A stretch of 28,912 nt of DNA from Pilasporangium apinafurcum (lineage: Eukaryota > Oomycota > Peronosporomycetes > Pythiales > Pythiaceae): assembly GCA_001600495.1 (NCBI GenBank), contig BCKE01000027.1, positions 411,051 through 439,962 on the forward strand. Reading direction: 5' to 3'. The translations under genes and the position numbers were made by a program. The notes below the pieces were generated by a model. It saw only the letters and a program-made list of their open reading frames with translations. It was not told where the DNA came from and did not search any database. This document shows, in pieces, positions 2,621-28,912 of the stretch. The first letter of the stretch is position 1. Each line of letters starts with the position of its first letter.

Positions 2621-4300
2621 CTAGCAACCGCTGCCACCAGCGATAACGAGGCATGCCGTGCTTGGGTAGATGGCCATAATATTGGTCATCACCGACCACA
2701 CGAGACCAAAGATCATGTAGAAAAGTGTGAGGGAGCCTAACAAGAAGCTCGAGCCACCAGAGCGCACCAATTCTTGTGTTTCTGCCTTTTGACGAGGCAA
2801 GAAAACCAAGAAACCCCATGAGACAATGGTCATGGCGTACATGAGGATGACAGTGTACGTGATATCCAGTCGGATCGAATGGTCGTCGACCTGCACACGT
2901 TCGTTGGTAATGTTGAATTCCTGATTAACGATACGGGTCATAGTCGAAGCAAACGGGGACGACAAATTCGACACTGTTGTCATCAAACCGTAGACGGCAC
3001 CTTCGCTGCCGATGCGGGCAATTTCGACCGTCACAAACGTACCAATAATAAAGTTGATGCCGTATGGTACGTAGACAGCAATGGGAAGACCCAACCAGAA
3101 CCATTGACTGCGATAGACATCCCAGATCGTGATGAACGTGCAGAGACCGTCGCCAAGCATGACCAAGAAGCCCGTGAACACCGTCATAGTACGCCAGTTC
3201 CAGTGAAGACCCCATTTGCCCGTGATAGCAATACCAGCCAAGAAGACAAAGTTACCGAGAATACTACTGAACGTGCTGTTCAACGGAGTAACTTTAGCCC
3301 AGTACAACTGAATGAGTGACGACGCAATGTACGAGAAGTTGGCGAAGATACCGCTGAAGAAATTGTAGAAGATAACTTGGTACATCGCGCGAGTCTGAAT
3401 CAACGACCAGAGATCCTTAATGTAAGTGATGAAGCTGATGCGTTCATATTTTTCTTCCTTGAGCAAGAACCACGTCGCTGGAATCACCGGAAGCATCCCA
3501 ATACCAATAACTAACATAAGCTGTGGAAAGGAGAGCGAGAAGTCAAAGTCACCAGCGTAATCTTCACCGTTAAAGCAGAAACCAGTTAAACATTGACCGA
3601 TGATGACAAACGCCGTACGGGTTGCGTAGATGGCGGACTGGGTGCGACCACGGATAGCTTCAGGTTCACGTTGAGCAAANTCCACAACGACACCATCAGC
3701 AGATACATCAGCCATCAAGTATCCGAACGCAGCAAGCATCATCAACATGACGTACTTGCCACCCTTGTCTTGGGCACTGAAGTTGATCCGCTCCAAATCT
3801 TCATCCGTGTAATCATCGGGTGACTTTTCACGGAGTTCAGAGTCTGGGTAGTAGGGATCACCCACTGGTGTGCAGGCCATGATCATGAGCATAAGGAAGC
3901 AGATGCTCCAGCCCAAAACCATATACGGACGACGACGATAGCCGAAGATTGGGAAGCAATCAGATACAATACCATAAAAGACCTTGAACGACCAAGGAAG
4001 ATCAACCAACTGGGACGCAGCACTGTACACGTTACCAGTGACGTTCAAGTACGCCTGAAGGAAAGGGTAGATCGTCGCAGGTAAGGTACCATAGACCAGA
4101 CCGACAGCGGCGTACTGGCAGAGGAGACCAATGCAATCTTTGCTGAAAAGGTTAGGAGCGCCACCTTCACGGAGAGCACCACCTTCGACGACCGGAGTCT
4201 TGGCGTCGCTGTACCCTTCTCCCGCTTCCTTGGCACCAGAGGCATTGCTCAAGTAGGACACACGGTCCGGAATGTCAGAAGTGTTGCTGGGCTTGTGCAT
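2621..4300 (-). CDS. Folate-biopterin transporter (BT1/FBT family)
   Basis: A 559-residue multi-pass membrane protein, intact apart from one ambiguous base (N at 3680, residue 207). Family marks are the motif around residues 103-125 (SFKVFYGIVSD, then PIFGYRRRPYMVLG) and the block ADVSADGVVV near 197-206 followed by AQREPEAIRGR. These are typical of BT1 proteins, which belong to the major facilitator clan. About twelve hydrophobic segments can be read, with a polar N-terminal tail of ~50 residues and a hydrophilic loop near 150-180. Such proteins import folate, pterins or related compounds in trypanosomatids, plants and oomycetes, where the family is expanded; the substrate here cannot be read from sequence. 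The ATG at 4298-4300 is shared with the truncated paralog at the left edge. The open frames antisense to it are shadows. Confidence 0.93.
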   Translation of the reverse strand: MHKPSNTSDIPDRVSYLSNASGAKEAGEGYSDAKTPVVEGGALREGGAPNLFSKDCIGLLCQYAAVGLVYGTLPATIYPFLQAYLNVTGNVYSAASQLVDLPWSFKVFYGIVSDCFPIFGYRRRPYMVLGWSICFLMLMIMACTPVGDPYYPDSELREKSPDDYTDEDLERINFSAQDKGGKYVMLMMLAAFGYLMADVSADGVVVXFAQREPEAIRGRTQSAIYATRTAFVIIGQCLTGFCFNGEDYAGDFDFSLSFPQLMLVIGIGMLPVIPATWFLLKEEKYERISFITYIKDLWSLIQTRAMYQVIFYNFFSGIFANFSYIASSLIQLYWAKVTPLNSTFSSILGNFVFLAGIAITGKWGLHWNWRTMTVFTGFLVMLGDGLCTFITIWDVYRSQWFWLGLPIAVYVPYGINFIIGTFVTVEIARIGSEGAVYGLMTTVSNLSSPFASTMTRIVNQEFNITNERVQVDDHSIRLDITYTVILMYAMTIVSWGFLVFLPRQKAETQELVRSGGSSFLLGSLTLFYMIFGLVWSVMTNIMAIYPSTACLVIAGGSGC

Positions 4301-6200
4301 TGCTCGCTTCTCTTGTCGCTTGGTGCTTGTGCCGAGGCTGGAGAATTGAAGAATGAGGACTAGCGGAGTGAGTCAAAATCCAAAGCCAGGAGAACGGACG
4401 AACCCAAGCGTTGACGAGCTCCATTACTAAGTCTACAAGCATGATTGGGCATCAATATGGAACATATATACAACGATATCGTGAGGGATGCAGCAGTTAT
4501 TAATGAGCGCAGAGAAGAGCCACGAAAGTCTGATAAAACGAGCGTGAAGATGGGGATTGTGAGCACATGTTACCTCTGTCCTTTAATTCCCTTCGGAAAA
4601 GATATGCTTCATATCGAAAATGCAATTGTTTTTGCCTCTTATAATACATAACGGAGAAGATGAACAAATAAGTCTACTCCTTTTCAAACCAGATATAGTA
4701 AGCAGGTATTCCCTCCAGAAAATCCCTCCTGTGGCATCAATGCAATCGCGAATTGTAATCTGAGGTTTAATATAGCAGACTTGGGAACCAAAAGAACGTC
4801 ACTTTCACTTTGATCTAAGATGCAGCGAACCATACACCAAGTTCACCCACAACTTTTTTTTAATTTGGCAAAAGGAAAGGTTTTGCATTAATCATTTTTA
4901 GTTTTGGTGGGAGCAAAACTCAGGAGAGATTAAAAGCGCCATAAAAAAGGCTTTAATCACGTGGTAACCATCGCGGTAACCGTCTGAGCAATTTCTGGCC
5001 TAGGGTGATCTGCTGACGAAACATACATGGCTGAGAGTAGGACAGCTTCCGGACAGACGGCATTACCATCTCCGTTGGGTGATGGCCAAACCATAGCACT
5101 CCACCTGCACGAGAGATGCGACAGTAAGTGTTTATTAGGAACTCCCACTCTCTTCATGTTTCTGTCCAAGATTATAGTTATCATCCCACTCTTGAGTGAG
5201 CGAGAGAGAAGACGTTATGCATACGGGATAGCGTCCGCCCATTCCATGTGCAACTCTTAACGTCACTAATCCTATGTCAACAATGTGTAAAGGGGAAAAA
5301 AATGAAGGTTGTGAAGAGAAGACTTAGCTATGTACACTCCCACAAAATATCACTACGAAAGCCGAAGTCATTTCCATCGCAACCACTACAAATGGTAGTG
5401 ACGCCTAAACCGCACTTCGATCAATTTCAGAAATCTAACGGAGCCGATTTATGGCAATGAGGCTTTGTCCGTCTACCGTCGAAGTTTTAGCACATCCATG
5501 AAGATAAGAAAGCTGAAACTTTGCGGTCACACAAATGGTTACCCACGTCGATGACCTTTTTTTGCTTCTTCGTGGTATCGTTCGTGTGAAGAATGAGAGA
5601 AAAAAAAGAGAGAGGGCAAGAAAAAGAATCCGAGAGAGAAAGACGAGAGAGGCCAAACGCAATCTCAGATGCACATAAAGTTGAAAGCATGGTTAGGTCA
5701 AAATGTTCGAGAAGCTACGCGTTTATGCTCATATAGTGGTCTTGATTGCTTTGTGCATAAATATCAATCAGAGGCATATTGTAGACACTACAATGCACAT
5801 TATGAGAAGGTAACGATCAAAAGGATTAGCATGGAATGGTGCTATTTGCCAGCTCTTTAGTCATATTCAACAGTGATTCACCCAGAGATAAAGAATAACA
5901 ACAAAAGAAAAAGTGGATTTTAATGCGGGAATACCGTAGAAATTGGCGATGCTCCATTCATTCATTCATTCACCCTCCATTCCCATCTCCATTTTCGTCG
6001 CAAGGTGACTGTTTTGCTTGCATTCATTTACATCCCATCAACCCATTCAATCATCGAGTGCCAAAGAAAGGCAATGCGGCTGACTTCTAACTGCTCCATT
6101 TGCGAAATCATCGTACATTCGTGTGCATCTTCGTTGACTTCCCTAACCATTTCCAGATGTCAACTATTTCTCTTGGCTATGCCATAACCTTAGCACTACG
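4301..6200. other. Gap: FBT upstream region and unassigned DNA
   Basis: The first ~80 bases are the FBT leader, shared in part with the left-edge paralog. Beyond that I find no gene. Short open frames on both strands carry no recognisable domain. There is a purine-rich tract near 5590-5650 and a short (ATTC) run near 5955. The right end meets the 3' side of the Fanzor relic. Confidence 0.45.
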
Positions 6201-6202
6201 CA

Positions 6203-6275
6203 CTGGCATATGGACTAACTGTGTGGACACGTTTGAGAGATTATTAGACTTTCCCACTGTTCATGGATACTCTTC
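6203..6275 (-). ncRNA. Candidate Fanzor guide-RNA region (3' flank of copy B)
   Basis: Read on the minus strand, the ~70 bases after the Fanzor1 copy B stop match, at about 80% by my eye count, the 3' flank of copy E at 8773-8841 in inverted orientation. In TnpB and Fanzor loci the omega/fRNA scaffold comes from the 3' end of the gene and the following non-coding sequence. Conservation past the stop codon fits that. The segment ends near GTTAGTCCATATGCCAG. No expression evidence is available, and the boundary toward a guide is unknown. Confidence 0.4.
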
Positions 6276-6282
6276 CTACAAT

Positions 6283-8248
6283 CTATTCTGCACGTCGTAA
6301 CTCTAATGGTCTTGGAAGTCTACGTGGGAGATACATGGCAAGTGTAAGGATGTTTTTCGACGCATTGACATCTCACTTCCATGTGATTCTGCACTGGTTG
6401 TTATTGCAGCGGAAAACCTGGTGGGAAAGTTTGGCGTCTGCGCTTCCATCAGCTTTTTTTATCGGGAATGGTGTATCCTCAAGCTGCCGGTAGCGCTCGG
6501 AGCATCGCTGACTCGTGTAGTACTTGTCGATCTGTAACCTGGTCGTGCATGTTGCCAGCTCGCGTGTAAACTGCTTCACGGGTCCACGCGTACGACACTT
6601 GATGAAGTCCTGTCGACTTCAGTCACCGAGGCCAATGCAAACCTGAGGACTTGGCGTGGGTACCAACCACTTTACTAGATATCCCAACGTCTTCCGACTA
6701 AATCTTGACTGAAGGAAACGTCATTTACGAAATGGATGCCTTGTACAAAAGCTCACCAAGAAGTCGAGATGCCTCCACACGTACTTGACGTTTGTCATAT
6801 ACTGCTCATACGACGCTGCCTTGAACGAAGGCATCTCCCGGATAATCCTTCCGTACTCATGTTCCCGCTGCTTCAATTTCTTGTGCCAGAACGTACAGTT
6901 GTTCATCCCAGCGAGATGCCTGTACTCTCACGTAGATACCTGTTGAATGTTGTACTGCTGGTTACTAGCTCGCTTGCATCGACCACCGTGCTTGTATCTC
7001 CTCTTCCTTTTCTTCTTCCCCTTCTTTCATCGTTTCTGCTTCGACTCTTTCACTTAATTCTGCTTGGGTTCCTTTCTATTGCATTTCGCTTTCTCCTCTT
7101 CCACATCAACTTCTCGCACTCGAATGACAGTGCAGAGCGATTGCGTACCGGGGTCGATCCCAACAACAGTATCAGGAACGTAATTATCAGGAAGTACCAT
7201 CATATTTTCGTCTTTCTCTTTCACGAGGCGCTGCTGAAGTAAAGACGCGCTGTAGCTGTTCATCGTGATCTGGTACACAAACTTGCGATTCTTCGTCTCG
7301 AACTTGCGAATGTGGAAGCCCTTCTCCCAATGCTCGTCTCGTTCGACTTAAAGCTCTTCGTTGGTTGGGTGATGCTTGGGCTTGTTGCTTGAGATAATGG
7401 AGAAGACATCGATCTTTTTGCGTTCGCAGGATGCGCGTATTCATTTCATTTAAGACGGTCATATTGATCATAGTGTGTACTGGGATGAAGGATGTCAGCA
7501 ATGGCAGTAGCGAGAACACACGACATCCTGCTAGCTCTAGTTCCTTCGATGCTCGAAACCCCATATACTGCAGCATTTCGTACGTTTTACGCAGAAAGTG
7601 AGAGAGATTTACTTTTATCGTCGATTTTGATGGTGGATACGCCTCCAGCCACTCGTGAAACTCGGTCTCTTCACTCGTAAACACTTCATCTTCGCGAAAA
7701 CAGCTCGATATCAATGCTCTCGTCTCTTTGTCATTCGTTCCATAGCAAAGCTGGATATAACGATGGAGCCGTCGATCAAAGCTCGCCACGATGTGGTTTG
7801 TTGCGTTCACATTCGTAGTGCTTGCCGGCTCATTGAGAGATTTGGAGACATTGGACATTTGTAGAGCCGAGCACTCGTCCGCAAACAACTGCCGTTGCGC
7901 TCGGTAGATCAGAAGCGTATCGTTAAGATTTTTATCGATGCACGTTTTTGCTGGCTTTCCATTTGCTTGTAAGAGTACCCCAGTACAGCATCTGTAAAAA
8001 CATGTCTGGGTGAGTTCTGGCAGCGGGATGTTGTCCTGGTGACAGCGAAGTACGTGCAGGTCCGCGACGTGCCAGGTTTTGATCTGGATTTTCTTCATCA
8101 CTAGCACTCGTTCGTCTACTTCTTGCTGGATGATGGGATTGTGGCAGAGCGTCGCCCACTTCATGGTGACAGTCGAGTACTTGAGTGCATCTTTTGTTAG
8201 TGCATCAGCCTCGTACTCGTCAGGCTTGCGCTTGGGTCTCTGGGTCAT
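6283..8248 (-). pseudogene. Fanzor1 (eukaryotic TnpB-like RNA-guided nuclease), broken copy B
   Basis: Starts MTQRPKRKPDEYEAD at the ATG 8246-8248. The first ~300 codons align with Fanzor copy A; shared landmarks are HVLR, FYRCCTG (FFNRCTS in A) and GCRVFSLLP (GCRVWSLLP in A). A frameshift near 7340-7380 moves the frame. The rest reads on with VVGIDPGTQSLC (RuvC-I, Asp codon 7153-7155), EYRHLAG, MPSFKAASYEQYM, a decayed zinc ribbon (TSQRCSER, then FRCNNNQC) and ITWK-stop-DVNASKNIL (RuvC-III, Asp at 6370-6372). In-frame stops include 7054-7056, 6721-6723 and the TGA at 6373-6375, where an Arg is expected. Zinc ligands are partly lost. Fanzors are RNA-guided DNA endonucleases carried by eukaryotic transposons. 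This copy is dead as read. The 3' end reads PRPLELRRAE before TAG. Confidence 0.85.
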
Positions 8249-8517
8249 CGAGTTGATGTGTGTGCTCGATGCACAACTTGTTCTTGCGAAGCGATTGGTG
8301 GACTATGATGGCATGGTCGAATGTATTTACACTGCACGACGTCATCCATGAGTCTTTTTTACTTGGTTATTTACCATATCTCACTCAAATCTACAAGATC
8401 TAACAAGTCGAAAACGCATACACACATGACAATTTGCAGCTTTCTGTCAACCAGAAATCACCACGAGACATCATATATGTGTATGAATGTTACTGTTGGT
8501 ATGCAGTCTGAGTGCAA

Positions 8518-8661
8518 TTAGTCGCTATCCGACTCGGATAATCCCTCTTCACTAAATTCTACTTCGCTGCCGCTCTCGCTGTCGTCGATATCTTCTATCC
8601 TCTGTATATGCTCGTAAATGTCTGCTAAATCATCATTTGCTTTGTCAACATACCTCTGCAC
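8518..8661 (-). pseudogene. Acidic C-terminal fragment of an unidentified protein
   Basis: An open stretch of about 47 codons on the minus strand without its own start. It reads VDKANDDLADIYEHIQRIED, then IDDSESGSEVEFSEEG, and ends ESDSD before TAA at 8518-8520. The strongly acidic Ser/Asp/Glu-rich tail looks like the natural C-terminus of a nuclear or transposon protein rather than random sequence. A stop just upstream (8662-8664) and the Fanzor copy E next to it show that it is truncated. I do not recognise the family. Confidence 0.35.
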
Positions 8662-8691
8662 TTATACAACAATTGAGAATAGTGGTTGCAG

Positions 8692-8769
8692 TCGAAGAAC
8701 ATTCTTACACGCGCCATGTGTCTCCTACCTAGACTTCCAAGACCACTCGAGTTACGACGAGCAGATTAG
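8692..8769 (+). pseudogene. Fanzor1 C-terminal end, copy E
   Basis: Plus-strand codons read SKNILTRAMCLLPRLPRPLE then LRRAD-stop (TAG 8767-8769). Copy B ends SKNILTLAMYLPRRLPRPLE then LRRAE-stop, so this is the extreme C-terminus of the same Fanzor1 subfamily, just after the RuvC-III aspartate motif. Nothing upstream in this frame belongs to it, so the fragment is truncated at its 5' side near 8685. It lies inverted relative to copy B, 0.4 kb from that gene's start. The longer open frame through this region at 8618-8953 uses another frame and is not a gene. Confidence 0.75.
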
Positions 8770-8772
8770 AGT

Positions 8773-8850
8773 ATCTATGGACAGCGGGAGAGTCTATCAA
8801 CCTTTCAAACGCGTCCACACGGTTAGTCTGTATGCTGGCAACCGCCAGAA
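8773..8850 (+). ncRNA. Candidate Fanzor guide-RNA region (3' flank of copy E)
   Basis: The sequence directly after the copy E stop is conserved with the flank of copy B for about 69 bases, with 14 differences by eye, 13 of them transitions. It contains GTTAGTCTGT at 8822-8831, a ten-base word also found in the 3' flank of Fanzor copy A. It ends in a perfect hairpin CTGGC-AACC-GCCAG at 8835-8848. Position and structure fit an fRNA scaffold. This is inference; transcription is not shown. Confidence 0.42.
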
Positions 8851-8934
8851 GAGAAAGTTACACCTCCACCTCAAGAGGTCATATGCGTTACCAAAGTACG
8901 AGAGGAGCTCCTGTTTTTCTTTGTTCGAGTCCGA

Positions 8935-9006
8935 CTTGACCAGCAAAAGTTAGTTGAGACTAGAGAACCGCGAAGTAGTCATCTCCAACACCTAGGCTCG
9001 GAGAAC
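8935..9006 (-). ncRNA. Candidate omega-RNA 3' end of Fanzor2/TnpB remnant F
   Basis: On the minus strand, from AGGTGTTGGAG to CTTTTG, this block matches the 3' end of Fanzor2-like copy C (12368-12417) at roughly 82% by eye, with one indel. Both contain CTACTTCGCGGT and TCTAGTCT. In copy C the segment folds into a hairpin; here the stem is partly eroded. It spans the last codons and the bases after the stop, the usual place of an omega RNA scaffold. Confidence 0.4.
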
Positions 9007-9420
9007 AAGTATTTGTTGTATAGTGTTCTTCACATTCAATCACGCGTCCTCCAGTTCTTTCCATCTTGTACTTCAGTAGGATGTTGAACTTGTAGTGAGA
9101 CCACGTGAGCATTCTTTTTGACACCTTGCCTGAAATTCTTTTTTGCTTGGATGTCAGCCCTGAAGTCCCGACGGATGGAAGAAGGACTCCATGGTAATAT
9201 CTTCACTATTTGGGAAAGCAGTCGATAGCAATGCTTTCTGTCGTACAAGATCGGATAGTTGGTTTAAGTGTGATAAAACTCGACAAGGAACAATTGTAGC
9301 TCTTTGTCAATCTCGGTGTCAGCATGATGGAATGACATCCATTCCTTGTTCCACATATAGAGGCGAACAAGACAAATTTGCAACTGGCCGCAAATGTCCA
9401 ATGCCTCGATTTTCTTAGTT
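8960..9420 (-). pseudogene. IS607-TnpB/Fanzor2-like nuclease remnant, copy F
   Basis: On the minus strand from about 9125 the frame reads SKRMLTWSHYKFNILLKYKM, then ERTGGRVIECEEHYTTNTCS, then jumps to a short tail ending at TAG 8960-8962. The pattern (mltWsHykF..L..K....G..v....E.yTs.TCs) is the conserved segment before the zinc ribbon in IS607-type TnpB and Fanzor2. After the first zinc cysteine, the zinc ribbon and RuvC-III are missing and sequence resumes in the conserved 3' end. Upstream, in another frame, KKIEALDICGQLQICLVRLY and FRQGVKKNA probably continue the same decayed gene to about 9420. RuvC-I was not found. The gene is inactive. It converges with copy E. Confidence 0.68.
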
Positions 9421-9435
9421 GTCAAGTTTGATTAC

Positions 9436-9490
9436 GCAGATTACGCCATCTTGGAAGTAGGAATTTGATGATGCAGATTACGCCATCTTG
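9436..9490. repeat. Two direct copies of an 18-mer
   Basis: GCAGATTACGCCATCTTG occurs at 9436-9453 and again at 9473-9490, 37 bases apart, just upstream of the membrane-protein gene. It could be a duplicated promoter element or an old minisatellite. Nearby, TGATTGAC at 9515-9522 and GTCAATCA at 9531-9538 form an 8-bp inverted repeat. Confidence 0.85.
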
Positions 9491-9700
9491 AGTCGGAGCC
9501 AATGAAAATTCAGTTGATTGACTAGCTATGGTCAATCAGGAGACTCGATTTTGATTGGATATTAAAGTTTGAAGTTCATTTAGTAGTGAGGATCTAAAAT
9601 TGTGCACCGCCCCAAACAGATCTTTCTCACTCTCCGTTTATCTCTTCACCAGAACGACTTGCATTACTACGTCGCGGACTGCTTTGACTAATTGACTGCT

Positions 9701-10724
9701 ATGGGTGCTGCAAGATTTGTGACTTCAACCTTCGGCCGGTCAGTTCTTGACTGGGAAGACGAGAAAGAGCAAGCCTCGACAATAAGAGTGACATTCGTAG
9801 TGATAACATTGCTTCTCGGATCAGGTGCTGCGATCCATGTCAGTCGCAGCCTTGGACGTATAAAGTTCTCAGATATTCGGCAGTGCTTCGGTGGTTGCTC
9901 AAGGTAAGGAATGCCAGCAGAAGGAAATGGACTGCAGCAAAGTTTACTCTGGCTTTCTTACCGACCATAGGGAAGAATGAATGCTAACTTTTCCTGTTGC
10001 TCTTAGAAGGTCTCGCACCGAATGGACTTACAACGCATTGCCGTTTGTGGCAGCCTATCTTTGTCATCTGGTCATCCATACTGCACATTTCGCAGATAAC
10101 GTTGCAAGGCCAATGGCTTACTTTGAGCCTGAATGGCTTTATAAACGTTACCTATTGTCTACCATGGAAATTACCTTCTTCTTCAACATCCCAGCAACTA
10201 TATACGGAGCAATCTCTGCGTCAAAGCTAGTGAAAATACTCAAGACGAGTGATGACCTTCATTACCGAGTCGTACTTGGTGTGAGTCAGGCAAATAGAGC
10301 CAACCCTGTGGCTTGTGTCATCTTCCGAAGATTGCTAATCTACACCTCGATGTCGATATTGACCCTGATGCACTACATGGCGGAGCCTCCCCAATCATTC
10401 TCCCTCTTTGTGAACTTCACCATAGCAGGTGAAGGCTTGGCCGCGCTGGTCTTAGCTGGAGTTATCCGTGCAATTGAAAACGGCATGATCTTACAAGCAG
10501 AGGGAGAGGAAAGGACTGTCGCCGAAGAACACTTGCTGAAGTTAGGAGGCAGTATCAATATGTCGTCTGCTGCGGAGGTGGGCTCGGAAGGTTTGGATAG
10601 TCCAACAGGACCGATAGAAGAGAAGACGCTTTCATCAGAGCAAGTGACATCAGAGAAGCTTAATAAGGCACCGGTTAGGCATCGTTCACCCCTGCGAACC
10701 CAGGTTAAAAAGTTGAGTGAATAG
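9701..10724 (+). CDS. Multi-pass membrane protein of unknown function (two exons)
   Basis: Exon 1 runs 9701-9903 and exon 2 runs 10007-10724. The joined frame (TCA AG|A AGG) keeps phase and gives about 306 residues. Exon 1 begins MGAARFVTSTFGRSVLDWED and carries the first membrane segment (VTFVVITLLLGSGAAIHV). Exon 2 adds about four: around ALPFVAAYLCHLVIHTAHF, MEITFFFNIPATIYGAIS, LLIYTSMSILTLMHYM and NFTIAGEGLAALVLAGVI. A polar, Ser/Glu-rich tail of ~80 residues follows. The ATG at 9701 is preferred to the in-frame TTG upstream. I do not recognise a family. A membrane carrier, receptor-like or lipid-handling role cannot be told apart. AATAAA words at 10882 and 10984 may serve polyadenylation. 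Confidence 0.75.
9904..10006 (+). other. Spliceosomal intron of the membrane-protein gene
   Basis: Donor AAG|GTAAGG, a consensus-like branch point TGCTAAC at 9982-9988, a pyrimidine-rich stretch and acceptor CTCTTAG|A. The 103-base length is normal for oomycete introns. Unspliced, the frame hits TAA directly after the donor. Splicing restores one continuous frame with a membrane segment on each side. Confidence 0.82.
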
Positions 10725-11188
10725 AGTAACGGTGTAACCTCAATTAAAACACGAGCAGAGGAAATTTGCAGACTCATGAATCTCTATTGCTCTTTTGTCG
10801 ACGATCAATAGTGCTAAATGGACAAGGGGCGACCAAAGAAGACCCGATAATTGGTGCAAGCGTTTGTTGCAATTCTAGCACAATAAAAATACATATAGTA
10901 ATGAAAATTTCTCCCTACATGATATCCCCACTGTCGATCACTTAGTCTGTCTCATCAAGGCTCTGTAGTCTTAGTAGTATCGTAATAAAACTCGCATCCT
11001 AATGTTTCGAGCAATTTGTGGTGCCTTTTGGAATTTTTCGTTTTTTTCGTGCCATTGATCTTCGAACATGAGATGGCGTGGTTGCAGTTGTGATGTGCGC
11101 AGAATGATGGTCAAGCTGGATGACTCAGTTCCCCATCCATATCTTCATTTTAAAAGCAGAAAGCAACGAGCACCTTCTTACCGTGACG
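10725..11188. other. Gap: 3' region of the membrane gene and acetyltransferase promoter
   Basis: No gene. Two AATAAA words (10882-10887 and 10984-10989) suit 3'-end formation of the upstream gene. Close to the acetyltransferase, CTTCATTTTAAAAG near 11145-11160 resembles the oomycete initiator type (CATT followed by T/A-rich bases), about 35 bases before the preferred ATG. Confidence 0.4.
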
Positions 11189-11746
11189 ATGGAGAGCGAA
11201 AAGGACAAGATGCTGCGCGGCAAGCTCTTCAGCGACATCGGCGAGGAGCTCACGGGCGAGCGCAGGCGCGTGCGCGACGTGCTGCGCAAGTACAACCAGC
11301 TCACGATCTTTGATCCCGAGACGCCGCAAGTTTTAGAGTCGTTTCTGGGCACGACCGGCAAGGACGTGACGGTCGAGATGCCCTTCCGCTGCGACTACGG
11401 CTATAACATCCACTTGGGGGATGGTGTATATATGAACTTCAACTGCGTGATTCTGGACGTCTGTGCCATCCGCATCGGCGCGCGTACGATGCTGGGACCA
11501 GGTGTACACATCTACACAATCCAGCACCCACTCGACGTCACGACGCGCCGCACGAGACAGATGATCGGCAAGCCCGTCACGATCGAAGAGGACGTCTGGA
11601 TCGGTGGCGGCGCCATCATCCTGCCAGGCGTGACCATCGGTCGCGGATCAGTCATTGGCGCCGGTAGCGTCGTCACGAAAGACGTGCCACCCATGAGCGT
11701 ATATGCAGGTAATCCCGCGAAGCTCATCAAGAAAGTGGACGAGTAG
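11189..11746 (+). CDS. Maltose/NodL-type O-acetyltransferase (hexapeptide-repeat, CoA-dependent)
   Basis: From the ATG at 11189 (MESEKDKMLRGKLFSD) the protein has 185 residues, the usual length of Maa/NodL/LacA-type sugar acetyltransferases, which transfer acetyl from acetyl-CoA to a sugar hydroxyl. The N-terminal Maa-type helix region is followed by RCDYGYNIHLGDGVYMNFNC, then the left-handed beta-helix repeats (IRIGARTMLGPGVHIYT), the likely catalytic His in IQHPLD, and the end coil GGGAIILPGVTIGRGSVIGA with YAGNPAKLIKKV. An earlier in-frame ATG at 11120 would add 23 residues that do not fit the family and probably lies upstream of the transcription start. The ORF is visibly richer in G+C than its flanks, which fits an acquired gene but could also reflect codon bias in an expressed gene. 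Confidence 0.92.
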   Translation: MESEKDKMLRGKLFSDIGEELTGERRRVRDVLRKYNQLTIFDPETPQVLESFLGTTGKDVTVEMPFRCDYGYNIHLGDGVYMNFNCVILDVCAIRIGARTMLGPGVHIYTIQHPLDVTTRRTRQMIGKPVTIEEDVWIGGGAIILPGVTIGRGSVIGAGSVVTKDVPPMSVYAGNPAKLIKKVDE

Positions 11747-12000
11747 GCGCGGTCACGTCGCAGGAGTCCGAACATGAAGTTAACGATGTTGCCCAGTGTT
11801 GCCAACCGAAATCAAACAAACTCGTTCAGCTCTTCCGCCTCGACGACCAATGCACGAGCTCAGAAGTAGAGATCCATAAAGAATGTTCACATGGGGCAAT
11901 GTTTTGGTTTCATTTTTAAACCGATTTTGAAAAGGTCTTTTAACCTTTATTCCCCCACTTCTCCCACCGGTGGGATATACTTTGACGTATTTTTTTCTCT
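11747..12000. other. Short gap with a TTAA-type element end
   Basis: No gene. At 11940-11961 the sequence TTAACCTTTATTCCCCCACT matches the terminal repeat of the MITE at 20816-21036, followed by a 14-base palindrome TCCCACCGGTGGGA (about 11961-11974). No matching right end is seen nearby, so this is a lone end or solo remnant. Confidence 0.5.
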
Positions 12001-12405
12001 CTATCGATAGAAGCAGAAACTTGTTTCCAATTCTCTGCAATGAGCGCCATTCTTCTTTTCAAGAACGGGTGCGAAGCAATGACAGTGTATGCCCGAGGAG
12101 ATCAAGTGCGTGGAGAATCAAAGTAACTGTCCAGAAAATGTGGCACGATAGTATTGATGCGAAAGGAAGGCAAGCATCATACATACGACTATAAGGAACA
12201 CTTTAAAACAAAGACTTGTTCTCAGTATGGGAGAATCAACCACGCGATCGAGCACCAGAAAGTCTTTCAGTGCTCTCACTGCAAGTTCGTTCTCGAAAGA
12301 GATGTCAATGCTGCGTGGAACATCTTTCTTAAGAATGAGCACCTACTCTCCTGGACTCATCGAGTCCAGGTATCGGAGACGCCTACTTCGCGGTGTCTAG
12401 TCTAA
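12001..12405 (+). pseudogene. IS607-TnpB/Fanzor2-like nuclease C-terminus, copy C
   Basis: The frame reads DYKEHFKTKTCSQYGRIN, VFQCSHCKFVLERDVNAAWN and IFLKN, ending at TAA 12403-12405. This is the zinc ribbon plus RuvC-III aspartate (RDVNA) segment of IS607-type TnpB/Fanzor2. The expected second cysteine of the first zinc pair is Tyr (CSQY), a one-base change from Cys. Upstream the frame has a TAA at 12124-12126, beyond which residues such as AMTVYARGDQVRG may belong to the RuvC-II region; RuvC-I is absent. So it is a 5'-truncated, mutated copy. The last codons overlap two hairpins, treated as a candidate RNA. A Tc1 relic begins a dozen bases after the stop. The start coordinate is approximate. 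Confidence 0.75.
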
Positions 12406-12417
12406 GCTAGCTTTTGT
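12346..12417 (+). ncRNA. Candidate omega-RNA hairpins at the 3' end of copy C
   Basis: Two adjacent stem-loops overlap the end of the reading frame. CCTGGACTC and GAGTCCAGG (12350-12358 and 12362-12370) form a perfect 9-bp stem with a 3-base loop. AGACGCC and GGTGTCT (12377-12383 and 12392-12398) form a 7-bp stem with one G-T pair. The second part is conserved in remnant F. Overlap of the guide scaffold with the 3' end of the nuclease gene is characteristic of TnpB loci. Transcription is not shown. Confidence 0.45.
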
Positions 12418-13075
12418 TACAACCTGGGGCAAAACTTTGGAATAACAGGTTTTTTGCTCGAATCCTAGCGACTGGAAATCCGTTTGAGCTGAAGTTTGGC
12501 GTAAATACTCTAATTGGCATTTACCACAGGTAGGCAACACTTTTTTTGAAATCGCAATTCGTTCTAGTGCAAGAGATGCATTTGCCAGAAAGTGGAGGCG
12601 GTCCAAAGTTTGGAATAATTTTGAAAATCCCATGTTCTTTAGATTTCTAGAGCATCCTAGACTCATTGAATGAGCCTAGTATTCAGTCATTCCTCCATGC
12701 CTCTCCATGACGTCGTTGCAACGATCTGGCATTGATGTAACCAACGTGAGAAGCCGACCGTGACTCACGTTTTTCCATGCTCTCACAACTGTGGTTTTCA
12801 GCTCGATGATGCTGTTATACTTCTTTCCATCATCATAATTCCCTTTAACTAGGTCTCCCTAAGCATTTTCTATATGATTCAAATCCGGAGAGAGGGATGG
12901 TTAGTCGAGAATATCCACATTGAAGTCCCTCAAAAATGTTCGAGTGGAAATTGATGCATGAATACTCGCGTTATTGTGCTGGAAAATATATGAGCCATCG
13001 TGGACATTATCACCAAAAGGGAGCAAGTAGGTTGACAGCATTTCCTGATAATAAAAAAAATCTTGATGGCCTGTG
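12418..13075 (-). mobile_element. Tc1/mariner transposon relic with broken transposase
   Basis: Minus-strand codons read EMLSTYLLPFGDNVHDGSYI, FQHNNASIHASISTRTFLRD, FNVDILD-stop-PSLSPDLNHIEN, then GNYDDGKKYNSIIELKT and MPDRCNDVMERHGGMTEY-stop. This is the C-terminal half of a Tc1-type DDE/D transposase: the second catalytic Asp region is altered to HNNA, and the SPDLN..IEN block is kept. Two stops stand where Trp is expected (TGG to TAG). On the 3' side the sequence after TA at 12418-12419 (CAACCTGGGGCAAAACTTTG) resembles a Tc1 terminus. The other end is replaced near 13060-13090 by the repeat ORF. Confidence 0.82.
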
Positions 13076-13076
13076 C

Positions 13077-13355
13077 GGCCGTCCGGACTCGTGGATGCTG
13101 TCTCTCTTTCAAGCAAATCGAGTTAAACTCAATTGGCATTATATTAATGAAAACCTCCAAGAATGGATGTTCCAATTGTTACGATGGCATTCAGGTAAGC
13201 TCAATTGGTGTTATGTTTATGAAAATCCCCAAGAGTGGATGTTGCCGCTGCTACAAGCGAACCCAACTAAGCTCGATTGGTATCTTCTTTGTCATAACTC
13301 CCAAGAATGGACATCAATTTATTTGATTGGCTTATATACTGGAAAAATAAATACA
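13077..13355 (+). CDS. Fragment with 24-residue giant-virus-type 'NP-K-W' repeats
   Basis: Three full units and one partial unit start at 13092, 13164, 13236 and 13308, exactly 72 bases (24 codons) apart and all in one open frame. Units read like EWMLPLLQANPTKLDWYLLC followed by HNSQ; others have KLNWHYINENLQ and KLNWCYVYENPQ. The pattern (SEW..-LL-aNP-KldW--l--NP) is one I know from repeat proteins of giant DNA viruses of protists. The function is unknown, probably protein binding. The start is not visible: the frame runs upstream into the Tc1 relic, and the stop TAG is at 13353-13355. It is likely a fragment of a longer gene. Confidence 0.6.
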
Positions 13356-13420
13356 TAGCTGCGTTTTTTTCAACCAATAACGTGAGAGCTTTTGATGCAC
13401 ATCATTTACATCGACTCACC

Positions 13421-13546
13421 ATGTCAGCAAAAGCCAAACACAAGCGGAAGCGCCGACCAGGCGAGAGCGATGACAGTGACTTCAAGAAGGTCGTGCCGAA
13501 TCTTGCGCAGTTGTGGAGAAAGAAAACCCAAAGAGCAATTCTTTAA
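13421..13546 (+). CDS. Small basic ORF, possible first exon
   Basis: Forty-one residues, starting MSAKAKHKRKRRPGESDDSD and continuing FKKVVPNLAQLWRKKTQRAI. The Lys/Arg-rich start followed by an acidic patch looks like a nuclear-protein N-terminus and is unlike the random short frames around it. No continuation exon with convincing signals was identified. The adjacent frame at 13547-13802 is unrecognised. It may be the truncated start of a displaced gene. Confidence 0.3.
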   Translation: MSAKAKHKRKRRPGESDDSDFKKVVPNLAQLWRKKTQRAIL

Positions 13547-14379
13547 CACCGCATCATGCTTTTTTCTTCAAAGATTCAAAAGCGATTTCATCCCAAAAGC
13601 CTCTTACATATCACGGTTGGATCTTTCGAACATGCAGTTGAACGTAGTGTTCTCTGTATCTTTGATTGGCTATGAAACATTCTTTTCTATTAATCCTGGT
13701 GCAATAAGCCTCCACTATATATCAAATTCGCTGGGCTTGAAGGTGGGTCAAATCCGTTTCCGTTTGACAAAGTACGGTTTCCTGGTGTGTGAGAGAACAT
13801 GAGCATGGGTATCCACCATGGAGAAATACCCTTCCAAAAGCAACCATAGCGATCTTGGCGAAGAATGAGTTGATCATGTAGGTACGATCGCCTAGCTACT
13901 TTGCTGTCCCCCAGAACCAGCTATAAAGTCCCAAATTCCGTATCGCAATGAACGGTTCGATTTGGCAGGCGATTTGCTGGATTTGTGCTATTATCGTGGT
14001 CCATGTGATCCCAAATGGACGTGTAGCAATGCACGAACGCGCAAAGTGCAGCAGTGGAGCAACACGAATGCGTGTTGGTGTGCTACACAAGTGACCCAAA
14101 AACTGGACGCTTCGTGGCAGCGCGCGGGACAATTTAGTTCATGTTCACATCCAGTGATGCACAGCACTGTGTGCATGTTTGCATCACCAGAGATCATCAA
14201 AGCGTACGATATTTCTGTAGCTGGCTGTACCACCAAAGGTTTGAGATTTTATTTGAACACGTTTTGCAAGTGGAATTGCAGCGAGACGACATCTACCACC
14301 ATTTAAGTGGCGATCCCAGCATCCGATTGAAGTTAATGTCGTCCTACTTTGCTATATTGGAAATTATTGACCAAGTGGT
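13547..14379. other. Gap downstream of the ABC transporter
   Basis: No supported gene. The last part (about 14330-14379) is the 3' side of the ABC transporter, which ends here on the minus strand. Overlapping frames of 80-140 codons on both strands near 13900-14300 contain no motif I recognise and contradict each other. Confidence 0.4.
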
Positions 14380-18306
<3,927 letters not shown>

Positions 18307-18402
18307 ACACTCAGTTCTACATGTATTGTGGCCATTTGATTCATCAACAGTCTGTGCAGCGTATCAGTGTTACACACTGCTGCGGTGAGGCATGGTGTCT
18401 CC

Positions 18403-18420
18403 AAGCGCGCGTACGCGCTT
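18403..18420. other. GC-rich perfect hairpin
   Basis: AAGCGCG-CGTA-CGCGCTT forms a 7-bp stem with a 4-base loop. It lies between the ABC transporter start and the candidate Fanzor RNA, so it could be a terminus structure of the Fanzor element or part of the ABC promoter. No further support. Confidence 0.5.
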
Positions 18421-18518
18421 TGAGGGATTTTCTCAGTGGTGGTCATAGATGTTATGTAGAAAGAAACTAACGACAATATGGGCAGAGGTGATGTGGCGGG
18501 CTACACGTAACACTTCGC

Positions 18519-18591
18519 ACAGACTAACTACAACCGTCAGCAACGGCTTTCCTAGAGGGAAGAACTCTTTCCTAGCAGACCCCAGTTGTAG
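18519..18591 (-). ncRNA. Candidate Fanzor guide RNA scaffold (copy A)
   Basis: About 100-170 bases past the Fanzor1 copy A stop, the minus strand can fold into a closed multi-stem structure. CTACAAC (18585-18591) pairs with GTTGTAG (18528-18534). Inside are a 6-bp stem CTTCCC-TCTA-GGAAAG with one G-T pair (18547-18562) and a small CCGT/ACGG hairpin (18534-18546). GTTAGTCTGT follows directly (18519-18528), a word shared with copy E and mostly with copy B at equivalent positions. Position downstream of the nuclease, structure and shared word fit an fRNA. The 5' extent and the guide are unknown. Confidence 0.45.
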
Positions 18592-18691
18592 GGCGCGGTG
18601 ATTGCTACGAAGTAATTCTCAAACTGAATATATTTTGGTTGGGTTACACTCATCCGTTTCCGGAATCATAGTAGTGAGATCGTTTATCACC

Positions 18692-20589
18692 TCAGTTTTT
18701 GATTTCGAGTACCAATTCATTCTTTTTCCTCGTGAACGCCTCGAGTCTCCTCTTCTCCTTCACTTGGTCGATGAATAGTCTCAAAATGTTGATTGCGGCA
18801 TTGATGTCATGGTCCCACAATGTGTGATGGCATTCACTATTTTTGCAGTGTCGCACACCATAAAGACCGTCACTGACAACTTTTCCGTCAAGGACGAATC
18901 CCTTCATCTTCTTGTGACAAGCACAACACAGTTTGCTCGTCTTGTACTCGTCCACATCAACAACACGACACCTGGAACCAATTTCCTTCCATAGGGTCGT
19001 TGTGGGAACAGCAATGTTGCCTTTACCCAAGCTTGTGAAACTTGAATCTCCATACGCGATAGCGGTTCGTTTATTACCATCTATAAGGTTCTTGACTACC
19101 TTCTCGTACATCTGTTGTCGACGGATGTAGGTCGATCATCGTAGCCTCTTCATCCTCCTTGATGAATACACGTCAAGAAGACGATCCAAATACACGAGAC
19201 AAAATCTCACTCGTTTCAAATAGGAGACAAGGCTCGCAACTTTTGCCAAAGGAACGTTTTCACTGAAGGTTTCGATGTCAGGCTCAGCATCAATCCACTC
19301 TTTGATCAACTTTGTTCGTCTGTGGTAGCCGCACTCTCTGTAGAAACGACCCTTCGACCAATGGATGACTTCATGTTTCACGTACTCTCCTTTCGAGTTT
19401 TGCAGCGTAGCCATGCTTCATCTTTGTAGACAACAGCAGTGAAGATCTTCTTTCTCCCTGGATCTAAACCGATGATCTGGTCTTCAAGAGAAAATGTCTT
19501 TTTCTCTCTCGTGAGAAGCTTTGGACGGGAGATTGTCATACCAACTGACATACCGTCGGTCAAGATGAAGCGCTCAAACTCCTTTCGCTAGACTTTGGTC
19601 ACAAGATCTATATTGAAGTACGTGCGCCATAACTCAGCTTTGTCGGTGTAAAGTTCAACAGGATCACTCAAAGTCTTAGCAAGATGCTTCAGGACGGTGG
19701 TGCTGATCTTGATGAAAATGGGTTTGAAGTGCTTCTGTGGAAGCAGAGACCAGACTCGGCAACCCTTCATTCCATCATCCACGTGAGCTTGTATGTCTAT
19801 CAGCATTGTGCGGAGAAAGAGCATGTGACGTTCCGGTGATTTGTTCAAGTCGAGTGGCAGCGATCCGATCTCATTTCTCACTCTATCCGATAATTCCTGC
19901 ATCCAAACAATCTCCGCAGTAGGGATGGGATACTTCTTGAACCTGGAGTACGCGGGGATCAGGTTAGATAAGCTATGCTGAGTTTGGGTGCTCGCACGGA
20001 CCAGCAGTGAAACAGTACTCTTGATTATCTTGCCTTGGTGCTTTTCAAAATAGTCACTGCTGTGAAGACATATCTGCAGGCGCATCCACTTACACAACCG
20101 AGAGTAGAACGTCAATCGGTTGCTGACTTGAAAATTCTGCCTTGCTTGTTGAGCGATCATAACCAACATCTGAGCCATGTGGGGTCTTCGTTCTGTCAGT
20201 TCATAATCCGAAGGGTGTTGGATCCTGTAAAGGTCTAGACTGGTCTCCAAGTCAGAATGGACCTCTTCGCTGTCGGCCAAGTTGGTTATTGCAGATGTGC
20301 ATCGATTGAAGAAGTTATTATCCGATGGAGGAAGTTCTTCGCCAGCTTCCAATACACGCAGAACATGGACGGATGCCAGCATAGATGCCTCACATGCTAT
20401 TCTTGAACAAAGTCGCACAGCCTCATCAATCTTTTTTGCTATTCTTTTGTCTTTGCAAAACTTTCGCCANCCAGTCTTCACAGTGGGGTAGACGCTTTGC
20501 TTTTGTCGAACTTTCCGTTCCGCAAAATCTGGGCGGGTTCTCCGCTTTTTAGTGGTGTTCTCTTCAATACCGTTGCCCGTTGATGCCAT
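18692..20589 (-). pseudogene. Fanzor1 RNA-guided nuclease, nearly intact copy A
   Basis: Reads from ATG 20587-20589 (MASTGNGIEENTTKKRRTRP) to TAA or equivalent at 18692, about 630 residues, normal for Fanzor1. An N-terminal basic stretch (TKKRRTR) suits nuclear import. Next come the recognition region (HVLRVLEAGEELPP, FFNRCTS, GCRVWSLLP), RuvC-I IIGLDPGRKKIFTAVV (Asp codon 19462-19464), a region with AIAYGDSSF where the RuvC-II Glu would be sought, VDEYKTSKLCCAC plus HCKNSEC (zinc ribbon), and RuvC-III WDHDINAAINIL (Asp 18806-18808). Lesions are an in-frame TAG at 19588-19590, one frameshift near 19390-19410 and a TGA at 19136-19138. Otherwise the whole frame is preserved. Known Fanzors cut DNA under an RNA guide; this copy is presumably recently dead, unless the lesions are assembly errors. 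An upstream TTG frame extension is not needed. Confidence 0.9.
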
Positions 20590-20815
20590 TTTATCACAAC
20601 GTTCAAAAACAAGGATGCCTCGTAGTTGNTTTGATTTTTTGATTATGCTGTTTCTCAAAGCTGCAGTTCTTTCTATCTTGGCAAATGGTGTTGAAGCAAC
20701 ACTCAATGGATGGCCACTAGAACGTGAGGTGGTAAATACTTGAATTCAATATGCTTCGCTATTGAGAAACCCGAAACGATTCATTCAAGAGTTGATTTTT
20801 CTAACTCCATATATC

Positions 20816-21036
20816 TTAACCTTTTTTCCCCACCCAAGATGTATAATTTCATTTTTCTGGAAACGCGATTGATCGTCAACATGGCCTTTCAAGATGATTG
20901 CGCACGCAGCAAGAGCCACCAAGGAGTCTCTCCATCCAATGAATCCTAAAGTCTACTCTCAAGGCAATCTTAGTTTTAATCTTTATTCCCCACATCATTT
21001 GTACAACGCGTTGTACAAGTGGGGAATAAAGGTTAA
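20816..21036. mobile_element. TTAA-flanked MITE (piggyBac-like ends)
   Basis: The left end TTAACCTTTTTTCCCCAC (20816-20833) and right end GTGGGGAATAAAGGTTAA (21019-21036) are inverted copies differing at one base, with TTAA at both borders. TTAA targets and CCyT-type termini are typical of piggyBac elements. A second, internal left end starts at 20976 and makes 20973-21039 an almost perfect long palindrome centred on GTACAACGCGTTGTAC. No transposase is coded, so it is a short non-autonomous element, perhaps a nested or rearranged pair. It sits between Fanzor copies A and D. Confidence 0.7.
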
Positions 21037-21349
21037 AACGGTGTCGTACCGTAAATGACAACATTTCCTAATTATGTCTCCTGTGGTATATACGATCTTT
21101 TAATAGAACATCCACAGTATTAGCGCCCATCAAACTATCGTCCTACTGCATCAATGTAATGTCCCATCTCCCTTATCTTCTTTTCGCAAGCTGTCCGTCC
21201 GTGCGGAAAACGTATGAGATTCCATTTTGTCCGTCTGGCCAAACCTGTCATACTGACTAGAAAACCTGACAAACGAATTACCTCGAAATCTAATTTTCAG
21301 TATAACCAACTGTAAGTGTCTCTTTGCAACCAGTATGGGAATTTTTTGA

Positions 21350-21543
21350 CTGGTATGTCATTCGACAATTTACCACCAAATGGTCAACGGCGTTCCCGAT
21401 GGCACAATTGAATCTCGATCCGTTTTGCACTGTGAATCCAGTGAATGCAAGACGTTTTGGGATCGCGATGTGAACGCTTTGCTGAACATTTTGCGCGTGA
21501 CGACAGAACTTTTCAACAATCGGGCAAGACCAGAGTACTTGTA
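21350..21543 (+). pseudogene. Fanzor1 C-terminal fragment, copy D
   Basis: The frame runs from a TGA at 21347-21349 to TAA at 21541-21543. It reads LVCHSTIYHQMVNGVPDG, then SVLHCESSECKTFWDRDVNA and LLNILRVTTELFNNRARPEY-L. It holds one zinc pair (HCESSEC), the RuvC-III aspartate motif (WDRDVNA) and a C-terminal tail, and resembles copy A (HCKNSEC, WDHDINAAINIL). The rest of the gene is missing or unrecognisable upstream. The open frame on the opposite strand here is its shadow. Confidence 0.72.
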
Positions 21544-21675: not shown

Positions 21676-22129
21676 GTAACCTAGTTACATATGAATGTAA
21701 AAGGGTAACCCTTTTACTGGCTTACACTGTTGTGCAGTGAGGAAGCGCAATTGATTGGCGACAGACGTCGTCAATCAAGAGGAAAGGAAAGAGAGAAACC
21801 GAAAGAGACTTACTCTTTTGGAGGAAAATTAGGAACTGAATTATTGTTTTAATAAAGCTACCTAGAAAGTGAAATGAATGACTGATGTTCGAGTGTCCAA
21901 TTCGAACATACCCAACTATACAAAACCCTATATGTAAGGATTGTTTACTATTTCTTCCATGTCTTGTAAAACATGATGTATTTACGGACTAACCGTAAAC
22001 AATAAACAACCGCACCTAACAGAAGTTCATGTTTCCCACACACAGTAGGAAATCGTACTTTATCAACCCGTTCGAGTTTATCCCGTTTTCAGACCCGCTA
22101 GGTCTGATATGTAATGGAGACCCATTACA
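21676..22129. repeat. Hairpin-rich tract, possible LTR remnant
   Basis: Six clear stem-loops occur: GTAAC/GTTAC (21676-21688), GTAAAAGGG/CCCTTTTAC with a 3-base loop (21697-21717), CACTG/CAGTG (21725-21739), TTGATTGGCGAC/GTCGTCAATCAA (21751-21778), CAGACC/GGTCTG (22090-22106) and TGTAATGG/CCATTACA (22110-22129). The first four follow Fanzor copy D by 130-235 bases. The TGTAA..TTACA type hairpins also recall the starts of oomycete LTRs. No coding sequence is present. I cannot decide between a retroelement LTR and a guide-RNA region. Confidence 0.5.
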
Positions 22130-27880: not shown

Positions 27881-27895
27881 GATGATGATGATGAT
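27881..27895. repeat. (GAT)5 microsatellite at the LINE 3' end
   Basis: Five GAT units, read as (ATC)n on the LINE strand, ~35 bases after the LINE stop codon. Many non-LTR elements end in a short simple repeat, so this probably marks the 3' terminus. Confidence 0.75.
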
Positions 27896-27929
27896 GAAAG
27901 GAATTCTATTTAACCTTAATCTTTAGGTT

Positions 27930-28912
27930 TTAGACTTCTCTCCTCTTGAATAGGGGTTTACAGCTCTGGTAATTTGCTGTAGCTGTTTGTATATCTTGAG
28001 ATATTGCGCTTTGCAACTTGTCCATTTCAACCAAGTTGGTTAATTCCTCCTCTGGATTCAGACGCTTTAGTGTGATCAAGTCAGTGAGTGCCACTTGTTC
28101 ACTGGGATTCAGCGGTAACCACTGAGTCCATTGTGCTTTACGCATGCTTTCTTGAAGAANGTTTCTTCCTCTATTTCGTCTTCTTCGCTTCAGTTCTTTC
28201 TGTTGCTTTTCGTCCGTCAGTAGTGTTAGAGATACTGCTTTCTCCTCCAGTTGTTTATGGATCGTCAGTAGGCTTTGTTGTAGAGCATTTCGCATTGCCT
28301 CCTGTTCGGGCTGTTCTGGTTCTACTGCTCGTATTCCATAGTCAATTACTCTCCATTTTTGTTCATGGTGGATGGCGATTATCCATGCCATGTCTCGTGC
28401 TCTAATTTCCCATCCCTTGAATACACCATAGGCTATGGTGATACTTGTGACTTTCAGTTTTTCTCGCTCTTGTGGGATTCTTACAAGTACGCTTATGCAC
28501 TGCTCCATACAAATACCGAGTATTTGCGTTCCTTGTTGCCTCTGTTTGGCGGTTGCTATTGCTGTCACTTGCCTCATTGTAGAATTCCATATTGATATTG
28601 TGGTTGCTGCACGTGTGATGGTTTCCTTCGAGTGGATTATCTTGTTCCGATACTGCCATAGCAGTGCTGGTATTGCTCTGCAACAGATGAACCATATTAT
28701 TTGTAATGCTCGGTGGTGATCTTCAGTGAAATATCCGTAGTCTCTCCTGAGTTGTGCAACTTGATGGGGATCGTATCGTGGCATTATGTTTCTGAATATT
28801 GCTCGCTTGGCTTTATTCCATGGTATCCCTCCTATCATTGTTGGGAGCCAGTGTTCCAATAGTTTGCTCCATACCTCTCTTGCTCGGGGGCACTCCCATA
28901 CAATGTGGCTTA
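27930..28912 (-). mobile_element. LINE (non-LTR retrotransposon) ORF2 C-terminus
   Basis: One open frame of about 327 codons runs from the window edge to TAA at 27930-27932. At its start SHIVWECPRAREVWSKLLEH is the zinc-binding zf-RVT motif that follows the reverse transcriptase in plant- and oomycete-type LINEs. The following ~300 residues are the long C-terminal tail, rich in Gln/Glu with a basic patch (KELKRRRRNRGRN). One N base at 28160. The reverse transcriptase proper lies outside the window. The frame is undisturbed here, so the copy may be young. Confidence 0.78.

Follow-up and report, generated by a model that had tools for sequence, protein, structure and literature searches.

How did a 15-kb interval in the genome of the oomycete Pilasporangium apinafurcum come to hold several pieces of Fanzor genes, which code for eukaryotic RNA-guided nucleases of the TnpB kind? 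The interval (positions 6283-21543) lies in a stretch of 28,912 nucleotides, here called the window, which forms the final 28.9 kb of a 440-kb contig in a 36.5-Mb eukaryotic assembly with gaps. We consider it most probable, at roughly 0.78, that the interval represents independent insertions of Fanzor-carrying transposons from five or more dispersed families, followed by decay, and that these included piggyBac-like carriers, an IS607 element lodged in such a carrier, and short deletion derivatives of the type of piece IV described below. The protein families, the element ends, the internal deletions and the occurrence of the same families elsewhere in the genome are all visible directly in the comparisons. 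The genome was compared through lists of best-matching places together with 58 loci (L numbers), and all counts taken from these lists are lower bounds.

Fanzor-derived pieces and their families

A six-frame Pfam scan covering the entire window gave four matches to PF07282, the zinc-ribbon (ring) domain of TnpB and Cas12f, with E values from 9.2e-8 to 1.3e-4 (Table 1). Two of the four pass the curated cut-off, and the matches at 9002-9097 and 6349-6534 fall below it. RuvC-III-type motifs occur four times and RuvC-I motifs with DPG twice, where 30 base-shuffled windows average 0.0 and 0.2, respectively. Counts of both motifs are far above those of the shuffles, and we therefore take the Fanzor pieces to be real. 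Chance, or resemblance to an unrelated zinc ribbon, could account for the two matches under the cut-off, but relatives of the pieces elsewhere in the genome score far above the cut-offs and the RuvC-III motif count of 4 stands against 0.0 in the shuffles, so that we give this explanation practically no credence. The profile search thus agrees with a sequence-only reading of the interval, which had proposed Fanzor/TnpB-like genes on motifs.

Six pieces, I to VI, emerge from the reading frames, from counts of motifs and from comparing the DNA with that of relatives. Five separate Fanzor-derived pieces (in order, I, III, IV, II and V) lie within the interval, and VI lies just beyond it. The sequence-only reading had counted six loci within 15 kb, close to the present count; our guess is that II may have been counted twice. 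It had also divided the loci into four of Fanzor1 and two of Fanzor2 type, and this division has to be redrawn: I, II and V are of Fanzor1 type, and III, IV and VI of Fanzor2 type. No piece encodes an intact protein, and III to VI are fragments. The nuclease copies in the window are dead, and none of them encodes a whole nuclease.

Table 1. Fanzor-derived pieces of the window and the features that mark them
Feature	Position	Strand	Evidence or remark
Element I, near full-length decayed Fanzor1-type, 2.6 kb	6206-8851	-	PF07282 E 1.3e-4; inverted repeats; genome copies
Long terminal inverted repeats of I	6206-6361 / 8691-8835		78%
PF07282 (ring with RuvC-III) in I	6349-6534	-	E 1.3e-4
RuvC-III-type motif in I	6349-6375	-	
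RuvC-I motif with DPG in I	7132-7164	-	VVGIDPG
Open N-terminal part of I protein, 353 amino acids	7187-8248	-	Fanzor1-type
Piece III, internally deleted Fanzor2, L024 family	~8857-9353	-	PF07282 half domain E 7.6e-5
3' piece of III	9001-9195		
PF07282, half domain, in III	9002-9097	-	E 7.6e-5
5' piece of III	9202-9353		
Piece IV, ~0.5-kb Fanzor2-family mini-element	11940-12453	+	PF07282 E 9.2e-8; NF038280 IS607_TnpB E 5.1e-7
PF07282 in IV	12196-12324	+	E 9.2e-8
RuvC-III-type motif in IV	12298-12324	+	
Element II, near full-length decayed Fanzor1-type, 2.4 kb	18642-21039	-	PF07282 E 8.3e-7; NF040570 E 1.2e-9
PF07282 in II	18785-18970	-	E 8.3e-7
RuvC-III-type motif in II	18785-18811	-	
RuvC-I motif with DPG in II	19441-19473	-	IIGLDPG
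Open N-terminal part of II protein, 372 amino acids	19588-20706	-	Fanzor1-type
5' palindrome of II, 67 bp	20973-21039		with TTAACCTTTATTCCCC end
Piece V, fragment of a further Fanzor1-type family	21164-~21560	+	right end approximate
Left part of V	21164-21378		
RuvC-III-type motif in V	21464-21490	+	
Piece VI, 5' piece (leader and first codons)	21774-22129	+	related to young Fanzor2-like family of L020

Element I has relatives in the genome at 75-84% DNA identity, many with the same layout, and its N-terminal part matches at least 124 pieces (best 115 of 221 candidates scored). Its reading frame shifts once, the RuvC-III RD is hit by a stop, and one ring cysteine is lost. Element II is damaged by a stop and frame changes. 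Its N-terminal part has at least 114 genome matches (best 110 of 369 candidates scored), the best of the other copies being 80-88% identical, and the element as a whole is 88% identical in DNA to L048. Among the matches listed, homology ends at 18641-18647 in 38 of 39 other copies and at 21036-21045 in 36 of 37, which fixes the 3' and 5' limits of II; a 3' terminal hairpin known from other copies is apparently absent from it.

The N-terminal parts of I and II are 27% identical (E 8.1e-6) and have the motif GCRV[FW]SLLP in common. A relative of element I with an open frame of 423 amino acids, L045, matches the solved Fanzor1 SpuFz1 (8gkh) at E 1.6e-6; it is 34-40% identical to I and 23% to II (E 7e-16). 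We assign element II to Fanzor1 because it is linked through I, through L045 and through its ring match (NF040570, 1.2e-9). A glutamate six residues before the first ring cysteine is found in II (EYKTSKLC) and in the element I relative L037 (EYYTSQRC), and I itself has a lysine there; the alternative-glutamate rule for Fanzor1 comes from passages of PMC10711439. Some results speak against the Fanzor1 assignments: direct searches of PDB with fragments of II found no Fanzor, a three-sequence profile had SpuFz1 as its top match but only at E 0.09, and the ring of L037 matched a DPY30-domain protein (E 0.0011) ahead of GtFz1 (E 0.037). Three viral-contig scans and two prokaryote-genome scans yielded no outside relatives for a tree. 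Piece V consists of a left part followed by a C-terminus with half a zinc ribbon and RuvC-III (CESSEC..WDRDVNALLNIL). It matches C2:578012 and C64:146160 at 96%, and its left part matches L043 at 92.6%.

The parent family of III and IV is represented by L024, with a frame of 504 amino acids in which a helix-turn-helix domain (IS605-type) and the ring score above cut-off and an OrfB match just under it. Its best PDB match is the mimivirus Fanzor2 L79 (9b0l, E 6.3e-25), followed by an AI-designed nuclease (9.4e-16) and natural IS605 OrfB-type chains from 6.8e-12. Remnants of the IS607 transposase TnpA lie 5' of the Fanzor2 gene in L024 (NF033518, E 8.2e-13) and in L002. Together with the SpuFz1 match of L045, this upholds the earlier claim of at least two Fanzor lineages. 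The remnants are degraded, at 48 and 53 bits, below the curated cut-off of 110, and III and IV themselves have no TnpA. With 15 of 15 candidates scored, the genome has three resolvase-domain matches, and each is followed about 1.1 kb downstream, on its own strand, by a listed Fanzor ring.

Piece III, in which a 5' piece stands beside a 3' piece and the ring is truncated, is 69% identical to L024 in amino acids and 79-81% in DNA; its right end, approximate and compared by eye, adjoins element I. Piece IV begins with a left TTAA-CCTTTATTCCCC end, continues with the remains of an SH3-like N-domain and about the last 70 Fanzor2 codons, and finishes in a diverged inverted right end; in all, about 265 bases remain from the left end and 235 from the 3' end. 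Among the best 40 of 671 candidates, 36 of 40 other copies match it from the left end through 12417-12419 with the same junction, at 87-94%. Deletion derivatives of ~0.5 kb that preserve the 3' region of the expected guide RNA form a large family, of which piece IV is a member.

Piece VI is 81-86% identical in DNA to copies in L010-L025 (tblastn E 8.9e-6). The young Fanzor2-like family to which it is related comprises L020 (L020:2424-5079) and 15 other loci, 95-99% identical in the 3' part and 82-97% in the 5' part. Its ends are sharp (ACCG...GGCG), by eye without inverted repeats or a consistent target duplication. The frames in L010 and L020 are long, and the DPG, ExxxxxxC and RuvC-III motifs are present; from its sequence this family could still be active, with gaps and single Ns limiting the reading. 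The young-family copy in L023 carries the 11-base word CACGACGTCAC at its left junction and in its right flank, unlike other copies. At L042:510-630 a young-family right end directly adjoins a family-I terminus, a nested insertion beside or into another Fanzor element. Another dispersed repeat, at L020:5095-5181 beside the young element, matches window positions 27881-27967 at 96.6%. A separate TnpB-like family, of 691 amino acids, is present at L009:4687-6759 (C135) and in L001 (C7, an 875-kb contig). It has a RuvC-I DPG, an apparently canonical RuvC-II glutamate (IIFLEKF) and no glutamate before the ring; in the passages of Yoon et al. (PMC10711439) such canonical-glutamate Fanzors are regarded as mis-annotated prokaryotic TnpBs.

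Origin of the cluster and its surroundings

The density of pieces had been attributed to repeated insertion or to local copying in one genomic pocket. Repeated insertion fits, as each piece has relatives elsewhere in the genome, the best of them at 81-96% DNA identity. If the pieces had arisen from one another by duplication within the window, they should be related here; III and IV do belong to one family, and they share window DNA (57 columns, 81%). They are the only pieces that do so. At E 1e-5, I, II, V and VI show no mutual DNA similarity inside the window, each family has close copies at many other places, and no duplication tract covering two pieces with their flanks appeared in the window DNA comparison. 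We regard local copying as very improbable.

Whether the interval is a special pocket was judged on at least 356 distinct loci among the matches listed, with the pieces of one locus counted once and repeated family-II rows left out. Three or more listed loci fall in each of six 15.3-kb stretches, the interval among them; uniform placement would give 3.2 such stretches (95% range 0-7). With V and its two listed copies added, the interval has four listed loci, and 15% of uniform simulations contain a stretch at least as full. A special pocket is thus not supported among listed loci; small remnants such as III, V and VI elsewhere are left out of this count, and a mild excess is possible.

Among the pieces lie a hexapeptide acetyltransferase and an ABC transporter frame of 1297 amino acids. 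Tandem-repeat and tRNA-gene searches gave nothing relevant, and Rfam had no match in the window. A 180-base direct repeat (20-199 / 4183-4356, 72% identity) is unrelated to the Fanzor pieces. Elsewhere in the genome, the elicitin family has 50 matches, against 0 in 14 control genomes, with clusters of several on C5, C8, C16, C24 and C54; these matches mark the host as an oomycete. At C22:329-379 kb, C50:193-199 kb and C44:160-188 kb, matches with equal scores come in pairs on opposite strands, which may reflect inverted duplications or artefacts of the assembly. Two long frames from the genome list, of 2332 and 8140 amino acids, were rejected; they span assembly gaps of N.

Shared TTAA ends and a putative piggyBac-like carrier

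What moved these families? In L024, L004, L006 and L007 the first letters are TTAACC and the inverted right end again contains TTAA, so that TTAA stands at both ends. Seven of eight mini-elements examined have the TTAA right end, and piece IV retains TTAA on its left side only. The 16-bp end TTAACCTTTATTCCCC is common to the Fanzor1 family II and to the Fanzor2 mini-elements of the III/IV family. With at most one mismatch this 16-mer is found at 505 genome places, and the reversed control at 0. Among 100 listed places, 11 coincide with the left end of a listed mini-element, and for 40 a listed family-II locus is no more than 2.7 kb away. The places form six inward-facing pairs with 0.3-2.7 kb between the partners, and every pair has a family-II copy inside it.

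The left part of L024, L007 and L004 encodes an SH3-like piece that matches a stretch just upstream of an open piggyBac gene on C5, with alignment scores of 90, 104 and 87 for L024, L007 and L004, respectively, against 39, 44 and 44 for the best of 1000 shuffles. Used as a query, the C5 stretch finds its best other genome match just upstream of the piggyBac gene on C40; the piggyBac DDE transposase domain PF13843 has three matches in the genome. Among 70 SH3-like matches, 14 have a listed Fanzor ring (150 listed) 0.15-2.6 kb downstream on the same strand, with 0.35 expected and none on the other strand. We propose capture by a piggyBac-like carrier because the TTAA and 16-bp ends are shared and because the SH3-like piece occurs both beside piggyBac genes and in Fanzor2 elements. 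This pattern of ends and neighbours suggests that piggyBac-like transposons may have captured both Fanzor lineages.

Several observations count against such a carrier. No piggyBac gene was seen between TTAACCTTTATTCCCC ends, the ends of the C5 transposase gene's element were not reached within 300 bp on either side, and 53 of the 70 SH3-like matches, the two piggyBac loci included, adjoin neither a listed ring nor a listed mini-element nor a shared end. Families II and III/IV might instead be moved by another class of transposase with TTAA or hairpin ends. The 5' end of family II is palindromic, and we know of no piggyBac element with such an end; that the C5 ends were not reached would suit this explanation as well. 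Both strong piggyBac genes nevertheless have the SH3-like piece just upstream, and the Fanzor2 elements contain it too; we judge a different transposase class to be a somewhat unlikely, if real, alternative to a piggyBac-like carrier.

The Fanzor2 elements might also be IS607 transposons of the ordinary kind, driven by a serine recombinase of their own, that acquired the TTAACCTTTATTCCCC end and the SH3-like piece by nesting in an older TTAA transposon without forming a joint unit. IS607 TnpA remnants are present, and nested insertions do occur, as at L042. Resolvase matches, however, are confined to three places, and the ~0.5-kb derivatives have a constant left end and junction at 36 of 40 other listed places and a TTAA right end in seven of eight copies examined; the unit therefore spread with those ends. 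Ordinary IS607 movement is in our view unlikely.

In the established model of TnpB and Fanzor, the nuclease is guided by RNA from the right end of its element. This right-end guide-RNA model is described in passages of PMC10432273 and PMC10711439. The parent elements of the window pieces would accordingly have encoded an RNA-guided nuclease with a guide RNA from their own right end; the nuclease would have cut the empty donor site or a sister copy, and repair would have restored the element. Families II and III/IV would have been carried by piggyBac-like (TTAA) transposons and moved in trans, the III/IV parent being an IS607 element (TnpA plus Fanzor2) lodged inside such a transposon. Pieces like IV would be non-autonomous derivatives retaining both ends and the 3' guide-RNA region, comparable to the 'ghost' elements of Spizellomyces.

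More tentatively, and at somewhat less than even odds, this genome may have kept an evolutionary intermediate among Fanzors, namely a piggyBac-like transposon that houses an IS607 cassette (serine recombinase plus Fanzor2) and has its ends in common with an abundant Fanzor1 family. One carrier type would then have recruited both lineages, and hundreds of ~0.5-kb derivatives might supply guide RNAs in trans to Fanzors elsewhere, for example those of the young family. The 3' hairpins count against the guide-RNA part of the main reading: they fold only moderately well, with z -2.2 for IV and close to -1 for L024 and L004, and their covariation is not above that of shuffles, 197 of 500 of which reach the observed value.

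Comparison with known systems

By itself the window is ordinary and holds decayed transposon copies of known enzyme families. How a bacterial IS607 nuclease gene came to be carried by many eukaryotic transposons has still to be explained, and in the passages of their paper Yoon et al. (PMC10711439) infer a capture step. A genome in which a TTAA-ended unit still contains an IS607 transposase remnant, a Fanzor1 family has the same end and mini-elements are numerous makes this capture step, and the supply of guide RNA in trans, testable.

Elements I and II resemble the Fanzor1 elements SpuFz1 and GtFz1 in the RuvC-I DPG, in a C4 ring with RuvC-III and in being inverted-repeat DNA elements that encode Fanzor alone. 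They differ in that I and II are decayed here and II has TTAA/16-bp ends. Fanzors in oomycetes, hundreds of Fanzor copies and ghost elements are already in print; Fanzor1 is reported from Pythium, Phytophthora and Albugo (Bao and Jurka 2013, PMC3627910). In that paper, TTAA does not occur and the single mention of piggyBac is unrelated to Fanzor.

The L024 family resembles Fanzor2 in IS607 elements, such as mimivirus L79 (ISvMimi), in its best match, which is L79, its IS605-type helix-turn-helix and the upstream IS607 TnpA remnant. It differs in its TTAA-bearing inverted ends and in the SH3-like piece that leads the L024 unit; to our knowledge, IS607 elements have no TTAA-bearing inverted ends. 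Their crossover takes place at GG dinucleotides, according to passages of PMC10711439. The same passages (Yoon et al. 2023) describe Fanzor2* in eukaryotic cut-and-paste transposons, with Fanzor2 likewise inside an inverted-repeat element. Those cases, from Chloropicon and molluscs, are termed non-IS607, whereas here an IS607 TnpA remnant persists. The word 'piggyBac' is absent from the main text of that paper, and none of the titles listed in our literature searches connects Fanzor with a piggyBac-like or TTAA element. As far as these titles and passages go, TTAA-ended Fanzor elements with an IS607 remnant are new.

The closest counterpart of the mini-elements is Ghost Spu-1 of Spizellomyces punctatus, recorded at 134 loci in the passages of Saito et al. 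(2023, PMC10432273). It too is about 0.5 kb long, has kept inverted ends and the 3' RNA region, has lost the nuclease gene and exists in many copies. Ghost Spu-1 is derived from a Fanzor1 and has RNA evidence, whereas the mini-elements of P. apinafurcum, known from DNA alone, are derived from a Fanzor2 and keep part of its coding region.

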